Below are positions 1 to 56,806 of a DNA stretch of 64,000 bases, piece after piece. Where the stretch lies: contig NZ_JAGHZV010000018.1 in the NCBI RefSeq assembly GCF_017745215.1, positions 1 to 64,000 of the forward strand. Reading direction: 5' to 3'. A model generated the notes under the pieces. The model ran no database searches. It was not told the DNA's origin and was given only the letters and a program-made list of their open reading frames with translations. The stretch is from Sphingomonas sp. Its GTDB lineage: Bacteria; Pseudomonadota; Alphaproteobacteria; Sphingomonadales; Sphingomonadaceae. The position numbers were made by a program, and so were the translations under genes. Numbering within the stretch: position 1 is the stretch's first letter; every line of letters begins with the position of its first letter.

Positions 1-178
1 GGCCGAAAAAAGGCAATCCCTGCTGTTTCAGCAAAGCTGAAACAGATGCGGCACCGGCCCGCTCCCCCACCCGGCCACCCAACGGAAGTTTATTCTATGG
101 GTGGCCGGGTGGGGGAGCGGGCCGGTGCCGCATCTGTTTCAGCTTTGCTGAAACAGCAGGGATTGCCTTTTTTCGGCC
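1..178. repeat. Family A palindromic repeat, copy 1: 81-bp perfect inverted repeat with 16-nt loop
   Basis: 1-81 is the exact reverse complement of 98-178; loop acggaagtttattcta; each arm contains a nested hairpin CTGTTTCAGC-(AAA/TTT)-GCTGAAACAG. Confidence 0.95.
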
Positions 179-263
179 CAACCGCTGCCCGAACATGCTC
201 TAGGCGCGCTCCTCCGATTGGATTAGACCGCGCGCCGACGACTTTCTCCCGGTGAGGATCCTG

Positions 264-977
264 ATGCGTTTCGTGACCGCTGCCCTGGCCGCCCTGGCCG
301 CACTTCTCGTTTCGTCGCCGGCAATGGCCCAAGGCGGCGGGCCCAAGCAGAAGCCCGAGCCGATCATCCTGGGCAACGTCAATGCCGCGCCCGACGCCTT
401 CAAGGCGCCCGCGCCCGACGACGCGACGAATCAATGGGTACTCGACCTCTCCTCGGGCGGCCGCGTCGTGATCCTGCTGCGCCCGGACGTCGCGCCCAAG
501 ATGGTCGAGCGGATCAAGATCCTCACGCGCCAGCATTTCTACGACAACACCGTCTTCCACCGCGTCAACGACGCGCCCGAAGGCATGGCGCAGGGCGGCG
601 ACCCCAAGGGCGACGGCACCGGGGGGTCGGACCTGCCCAACGTCCCCGCCGAGTTCAGCCGCCTGCCGCACGTCCGCGGCGCCGTCTCGGCCGCGCGCGC
701 CGAGGACAAGGACAGCGCGAACAGCCAGTTCTTCATCATGTTCGAGCCCAAGCTCTCGTTCGACGAGAACTACACCGTGTTCGGGCGCGTGATCTCGGGG
801 ATGCAATGGGTCGACGCGATCCAGCGCGGCGAGCCGCCCGCGAACCCGACCAAGATCCTCCACGCCTATATCGGCTCGGACAATCCGCCGGCCTATCAGG
901 GCGAGGCGCCGGCCAAGGTGCTGCCCGCGGGCGAGAAGGAAGTGACGCTACCGGGCACGGCGCCGCCCAAGCCCTGA
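264..977 (+). CDS. Peptidylprolyl isomerase, cyclophilin type, signal peptide
   Basis: MRFVTAALAALAALLVSSPAMAQ leader; cyclophilin motifs FHRVN..., MAQGGDPKGDGTGG, NSQFFIMF. Confidence 0.9.
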   Translation: MRFVTAALAALAALLVSSPAMAQGGGPKQKPEPIILGNVNAAPDAFKAPAPDDATNQWVLDLSSGGRVVILLRPDVAPKMVERIKILTRQHFYDNTVFHRVNDAPEGMAQGGDPKGDGTGGSDLPNVPAEFSRLPHVRGAVSAARAEDKDSANSQFFIMFEPKLSFDENYTVFGRVISGMQWVDAIQRGEPPANPTKILHAYIGSDNPPAYQGEAPAKVLPAGEKEVTLPGTAPPKP

Positions 978-16922: not shown

Positions 16923-17006
16923 CCGTCATCCCGGCGAAAGCCGGGACCCAGGGTTACAAAGGACATCGCTCGCGGCCCTGGGTCCCGGCTTTCGCCGGGA
17001 TGACGG
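16923..17006 (+). repeat. Family B inverted repeat element, copy 1 (forward core)
   Basis: ccgtcatcccggcgaaagccgggacccaggg...ccctgggtcccggctttcgccgggatgacgg; core ttacaaaggacatcgctcgcgg. Confidence 0.92.
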
Positions 17007-20240: not shown

Positions 20241-20324
20241 TCGTCATCCCGGCGAAAGCCGGGACCCAGGGCCGCAAGCGATGCCCTTCGTAACTCTGGG
20301 TCCCGGCTTTCGCCGGGATGACGG
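20241..20324 (-). repeat. Family B element, copy 2 (reverse core)
   Basis: Same REP arms; core gccgcaagcgatgcccttcgtaac, the reverse-complement orientation of copy 1. Confidence 0.92.
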
Positions 20325-23150: not shown

Positions 23151-23291
23151 GTTTGGAGTGCGCCTCACGGCGCATGGCGGTGCCGGCCCGCTCCCCCTCC
23201 CGGCCACCCAACGACAGTGTATTCTATGGGTGGCCGAGAGGGGGAGCGGGCTGGCGCCGCCTCAAAACGCGCTCTTCGCGCGTTTTCAAAC
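23151..23291. repeat. Family A palindromic repeat, copy 2
   Basis: Central ccggcccgctccccctcccggccaccca-16nt-tgggtggccgagagggggagcgggc; lateral hairpins tgcgcctcacggcgca and aaaacgcgctcttcgcgcgtttt; outer gtttg/caaac. Confidence 0.9.
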
Positions 23292-39213: not shown

Positions 39214-39280
39214 CTCCCGCGTTGCGCTGCCCCTGAACTGGGGCGTGTCGTCGAGTACAAGACGAGCATGAGCAGCCTTC

Positions 39281-39368
39281 AACCGTCATCCCGGCGAAAG
39301 CCGGAACCCAGGGCCGCGAGCGATGTCCTCTGTAACCCTGGGTCCCGGCTTTCGCCGGGATGACGGTT
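39281..39368 (-). repeat. Family B element, copy 3 (reverse core)
   Basis: aaccgtcatcccggcgaaagccgg...ccggctttcgccgggatgacggtt; core gccgcgagcgatgtcctctgtaac. Confidence 0.92.
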
Positions 39369-39446
39369 GGGAGAAGAGCCACTTCTGCACTTGATCACAC
39401 GACCAAGTCGAACACGACGATCGATAGGTAATGGTGACGGGAGAGC

Positions 39447-42601: not shown

Positions 42602-42684
42602 CCGTCATCCCGGCGAAAGCCGGGACCCAGGGCCACGAGCGATATCCCCTCCTACCCTGGGTCCCGGCTTTCGCCGGGATGACG
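42602..42684 (-). repeat. Family B element, copy 4 (reverse core)
   Basis: ccgtcatcccggcgaaagccgggacccaggg/ccctgggtcccggctttcgccgggatgac; core gccacgagcgatatcccctcctac. Confidence 0.92.
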
Positions 42685-51272: not shown

Positions 51273-51358
51273 AACCGTCATCCCGGCGAAAGCCGGGACC
51301 CAGGGTTGCAGAGGACGTCGCTCGCGGCCCTGGGTCCCGGCTTTCGCCGGGATGACGA
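51273..51358 (+). repeat. Family B element, copy 5 (forward core)
   Basis: Same arms; core gttgcagaggacgtcgctcgcggcc. Confidence 0.92.
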
Positions 51359-54232: not shown

Positions 54233-54318
54233 ACCGTCATTCCGGCGAAAGCCGGGGCCCAGGGTTATGAAGGACATCGCCCGCGACTCCTGGGTCCCGG
54301 CTTTCGCCGGGATGACGG
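54233..54318 (+). repeat. Family B element, copy 6 (forward core)
   Basis: ccgtcattccggcgaaagccggggcccaggg/ctgggtcccggctttcgccgggatgacgg; core ttatgaaggacatcgcccgcg. Confidence 0.9.
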
Positions 54319-56694: not shown

Positions 56695-56806
56695 GGCGGC
56701 ACCGGCCGACTCGTCCAGCCGGTCGCCCGACGCCAATATTCTATGGGTGGCCGGGCGGGGAGCGGGCCGGTGCCGCCATGCGCCGCGAGGCGCATCGAAA
56801 GCCGCG
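56695..56806. repeat. Family A repeat, copy 3 (left arm degenerate)
   Basis: tattctatgggtggccgggcggggagcgggccggtgccgcc plus lateral hairpin atgcgccgcgaggcgcat. Confidence 0.8.

Follow-up and report, generated by a model that had tools for sequence, protein, structure and literature searches.

The 64,000-nucleotide stretch of Sphingomonas DNA analyzed here (the window) opens on a structure in which, in all likelihood, two things are superimposed: a genuine dispersed palindromic repeat, and a fold-back mirror (bases 1–47) formed at the end of a contig. The earlier note had described an 81-bp perfect inverted repeat at this position, and as far as the letters go this description is exact: the arms at 1–81 and 98–178 are 100% complementary and lie 16 nt apart when the window sequence is compared with itself. 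A match of this length far exceeds chance; in the runner-up inverted repeat of the window, the arms are 48 nt long and match at 71%. What did not survive is the reading of the outer left arm, as bases 1–47 are best explained as a fold-back of 132–178. Symmetry in the genome is supported for the 34-bp arms at 48–81 and 98–131 (forward strand) plus 3 nt on each side (GAT...ATC). These arms enclose an asymmetric 16-nt loop (82–97, forward strand) and together with it form an 84-bp core, at the right of which lies a genuine flanking hairpin, CTGTTTCAGC-TTT-GCTGAAACAG (134–156, forward strand), with a 10-bp stem of a type seen beside many other copies. The mirror image of this hairpin occupies 23–45.

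The window begins with the first base of contig C9 in a draft assembly of 38 contigs, and the end of a second contig, C12, forms a pair with this contig end. The final 178 nt of C12 consist of the 3' end of coaD, an identical copy of the 84-bp core and, last, 47 nt in which the coaD flank is inverted. These terminal 47 nt are the exact reverse complement of the flank to the left of the core on C12, which includes coaD coding sequence, and the first 47 nt of C9, which are followed by the core, are likewise the exact reverse complement of C9's own right flank. Across the core and its asymmetric loop, 90 nt are identical between C9 and C12 and run in the same orientation. The right neighbor of the repeat is a cyclophilin-type peptidyl-prolyl isomerase (PPIase) gene (252–977, forward strand), and among the relatives for which the PPIase locus was retrieved, coaD was located close upstream of this gene in 28 of 29, the exception being L100. 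The conserved intergenic block of the locus, GCTTTGCGgCGC...CGATTGcTCTAGAC, is divided between the ends of C12 and C9; the block CGATTGGATTAGACCGCGCG is found upstream of the PPIase gene at 215–234 (forward strand), and its usual left half, GCTTTGCGKCGC, sits at the end of C12. When the core is removed and the flanks are joined, the product aligns with the spacers of the relatives, with the GCTTTGCGgCGC half supplied by C12 and the CGATTG..TAGACCGCGCG half by C9. The true upstream sequence of the core is that of C12, where the 3' end of coaD is followed by TGAGCTTTGCGTCGCGAT and 18 nt separate the coaD stop codon from the core. From the C12 pairing, the synteny and the split intergenic block, the true order is taken to be coaD, core, flanking hairpin and PPIase gene, without bases 1–47, across a coaD–PPIase junction that would run from C12 into C9. 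An 81-bp palindrome is rejected for this locus on the same three grounds, and the suggestion that its arms might extend to the left of the window finds no support, the real left flank being the end of coaD.

The presence of a real 178-bp perfect palindrome at this locus, produced by a recent fold-back duplication or representing a full-length palindromic element, is accordingly given very little probability. The 178-bp string is exact, but C12 in turn closes with this core and a 47-nt mirror of coaD coding sequence, and the synteny that joins C12 to C9 places coaD, and no mirror, to the left of the core. Of the two 81-bp arms, the left one is thus at odds with the paired contig end and with the gene order of the relatives. 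Long mirrors are moreover always found at a contig end, with one exception on C22. Mirrors reach the contig end at C9, C12, C2, C23 and C38, with terminal mirror arms of 92 nt at the end of C2, 83 nt at the start of C23 and 76 nt at the end of C38, the last of these centered on an unrelated repeat, CGTCATCCCGGCGAAAGCCGGGACCCAGGG. Beyond the core, symmetry continues for 48–59 nt in four of five contig-terminal copies versus 0–5 nt in 83 of 84 interior copies (Fisher p about 1e-5, which is indicative only as the copies are related). The sole interior exception, L027 (C22:14228–14309), is symmetric for 36 nt past the core and forms a perfect palindrome of ~154 nt confined to the element; this copy speaks for a real palindrome in showing that the family can include palindromes that are long and perfect. 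Further contigs halt inside the core (the ends of C8 and C9, and C13, C21, C26 and C30). The end of C2 (L055) and the start of C23 (L062) share the same 86 nt of core with their loops in opposite orientation and resemble a pair, representing either two copies, or one copy with a loop that was misassembled or that inverts.

The 81-bp perfect palindrome at the start of the window is thus very probably a contig-end artefact, an outcome that the earlier note had itself listed as a refutation and that the contig pairing and synteny point to as far as an assembly can tell. The hairpin would have been uncrossable for short reads or for the assembly graph, and the contig would then have been continued backwards on its opposite strand, producing bases 1–47 and, as a result, arms that look perfect over 81 bp. 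Chimeric reads that fold back at natural inverted repeats, passing from one strand into its reverse complement, have been described as an artefact of sequencing libraries (PMC10908179); that work concerned variant calling in human libraries, whereas the present case is one of contigs with mirrored ends in a bacterial draft. With an arm symmetry that very probably arose in assembly, perfect pairing outside the 34-bp core offers no evidence here of the recent formation or active maintenance that had been read from it. The accompanying argument, that long palindromes are usually removed by SbcCD, is weak for this organism, as the search of the genome for SbcD gave nothing above the family cut-off, the only SbcD-like match being a YaeI-type phosphodiesterase. 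A search of the genome for SbcC returned weak matches below the cut-off only, and this cut-off was passed by just one control genome; these results suggest that SbcCD is absent from the genome.

The 84-bp repeat itself is real, multi-copy and ordinary in kind. A BLAST search with bases 48–131 detected many dispersed copies in this genome, and a covariance model detected about 33 distinct full-length copies of the core, most copies found by the model being listed on both strands as the core is palindromic. The genome-wide statistics reported here are based on such search matches. With the same model, core matches were obtained in 87 of the 151 genomes of the genus, including the single-contig genomes G042, G049, G061, G107 and G136, so that both kinds of search uphold the earlier proposal of a multi-copy hairpin family in Sphingomonas. 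The window holds a second full-length core copy in its interior (23177–23260, forward strand), with a mirror of at most 2 nt beyond the core, and a third, diverged copy (56696–56776, forward strand). Across the family, the core has a 34-bp stem and a loop of about 14–16 nt. Gene context was assigned from simple codon-usage gene calls seeded with known genes: among 82 classified copies, 47 lie between tandem genes, 22 between convergent and 11 between divergent genes, and for 2 the position was flagged as internal to a predicted ORF. The family is almost entirely intergenic, its copies usually lying no more than tens of bases from a gene end and near stop codons.

Such positions, and the share of copies between tandem genes, would suit a hairpin kept by selection as an RNA element, acting as a terminator, an mRNA 3'-end stabilizer or an attenuator between cistrons. 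As RNA, the stem is very stable (−92.8 kcal/mol), and in 27 copies the arms co-vary, with 98% of pair cells standard, 35 double changes and none of 500 shuffles reaching as high. Arm-to-arm correction of DNA gives equal co-variation, however, and mismatches in the sense orientation comprise 16 G-U versus 12 A-C (p about 0.29), where selection on RNA predicts a clear excess of G-U. As G-U is not clearly above A-C, the data do not favor RNA selection above arm-to-arm correction or other causes acting on DNA. The stem also lacks a T-run directly after it, and an Rfam 15 search of the window returned no family match above the gathering score. Selection as an RNA element is on balance unlikely.

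Hairpins beside the main stem are a feature of the family. Of the 34-nt flanks beside interior cores, 60% contain a perfect stem of 6 bp or more, compared to 8% of control flanks about 270–300 nt away and 1% of shuffled flanks. The sequences of these flank hairpins are variable (GTTTCAGC..GCTGAAAC, ATGCGCCTCACGGCGCAT, GAAACTCGCGGAAGAGCGAGTTTC and others). The hairpin at 134–156 is a member of this class, and at the window start it is found on the right side only; the nested hairpins noted earlier are retained in this form, but the symmetric cloverleaf proposed for the window start is not.

Full-length copies of the element are 155–161 bp in length and contain no transposase gene, a size and content in keeping with a miniature inverted-repeat transposable element (MITE). 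Their ends take the form TNA-GAGNCYGTTTGGAAA...TTTCCAAACRGNCTC-TNA. The end motif GAGNCYGTTTNNAAA occurs 28 times in the genome versus 0 times for the reversed control, giving the full-length siblings terminal repeats like those of insertion sequences, and in 8 of the 12 full-length copies that could be scored, the TNA on one side is identical to that on the other; with L141 (TCA/TCA) counted the number is 9, in what is a small sample. IS5 elements of sister species (L205, L207 and L208) have the ends GAGNCCGTTTGAGAATG or close variants and are flanked by TTA duplications. A further Sphingomonas IS5 element, L209 (904 bp), has the ends GAGTCCGTTTGGAAA / GAGGCTGTTTGGA and TAA duplications, and its transposase matches the NCBIfam IS5 family NF033580 at 3e-70. 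TNA targets have been reported for the IS1031 group (PMC12016507). Based on the end motif, the TNA duplications and the occurrence of such ends on the sister-species IS5 elements, the family appears best described as MITE-like and non-autonomous, with IS5/IS1031-type ends, and an IS5-type origin of its full-length members is reasonable. The full-length siblings resemble IS5 elements and MITEs of the IS1031 type in ending in GAGNCYGTTTGGAAA flanked by TNA, but differ from such insertion sequences in their central 84-bp palindrome with inner hairpins and in having no internal transposase gene. Searches of this genome for DDE_Tnp_1 and for the L198 and L205 transposase gave no match, indicating that the helper is absent from the assembly. 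No GAGNCYGTTT end was found in the joined coaD–PPIase spacer, and the copy at the window start (48–131) is truncated or diverged, without GAGNCYGTTTGGAAA ends. It is the shared core that places this copy, provisionally, in the IS5-type MITE family, and it may descend from an element with IS5-type ends.

These ends also bear on the relationship of the repeat to REP elements. Like REP sequences and the REPIN-RAYT system, the core copies are short, GC-rich, intergenic hairpins present in many copies, and the core could on these grounds be a REP/RAYT-type element moved by a Y1 (TnpA-REP) transposase. The genome yielded 0 matches to PF01797, the Y1 (TnpA-REP) family, with control genomes positive, and a REP/RAYT identity was rejected for this genome for want of this transposase. 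The IS5-type ends and TNA duplications of the full-length members likewise oppose this reading, which we consider most improbable, and the stem is longer than that of REP elements. ERIC, RUP and Correia elements are short, non-coding, intergenic and palindromic and are dispersed in tens of copies, and in these respects the Sphingomonas repeat is like them; it differs in sequence and in host, and may also differ in its three-hairpin layout with flank hairpins of variable sequence. A review of MITEs (PMC10969869) is cited for the comparison with palindromic intergenic MITE-like repeats.

What lies between the IS5-type ends varies from member to member: one hairpin or two, two hairpins and a stub of the core, the complete 84-bp core, or another palindrome. 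The variants L174 (C6:42299–42434), L183 (C22:150820), L185 (C22:185914), L189 (C24:3433) and L194 (C37:89152) all have these ends, and their contents comprise one hairpin (about 49 nt), two, two together with a stub of the core, or an inner palindrome of another kind, GCATCGGGTGAACAGCGC...; this nested series could reflect growth or central deletion. A tentative view, given well below even odds, is of a modular mobile element built from nested palindromes, with arms kept symmetric by arm-to-arm DNA correction and a center that grows and shrinks. Three further copies, L107 (C15:16627), L109 (C6:96216) and L111 (C13:42451), are core copies in which one arm is interrupted by a second repeat, with two hairpins (GGTGAACAGCGCCCCGCGCTGTTCAGGCCATGCCGGGGGCATGGCC), and L110 (C2:58784) is a truncated copy retaining the left hairpin and the first ~15 nt of the core. 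A second dispersed palindromic family, CGTCATCCCGGCGAAAGCCGGGACCCAGGG, has 22–26 nt between its arms and also underlies the mirrored end of C38; in the window it is found at 16923–17006, 20242–20323, 39280–39369, 42603–42684, 51276–51357 and 54234–54318.

The history of the locus may be reconstructed as follows. In this lineage, the 84-bp palindromic repeat (48–131) and one flanking hairpin (134–156) would have been inserted between coaD and the PPIase gene, the inserted copy being a putative member of a dispersed, intergenic, MITE-like Sphingomonas family. The IS5/IS1031-type ends and TNA duplications of the full-length members suggest that an IS5-family transposase, no longer visible in the assembly, most likely mobilized these members in trans. 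As the mirrored contig ends illustrate, short hairpin repeats can yield convincing false long perfect palindromes at the ends of draft contigs, and a simple test is to find the partner contig with a common core and loop and then to check synteny. No published description of a Sphingomonas palindromic repeat or IS5 MITE was found in the literature searched, and a widespread palindromic repeat of this genus, with IS5-type ends, is now described.
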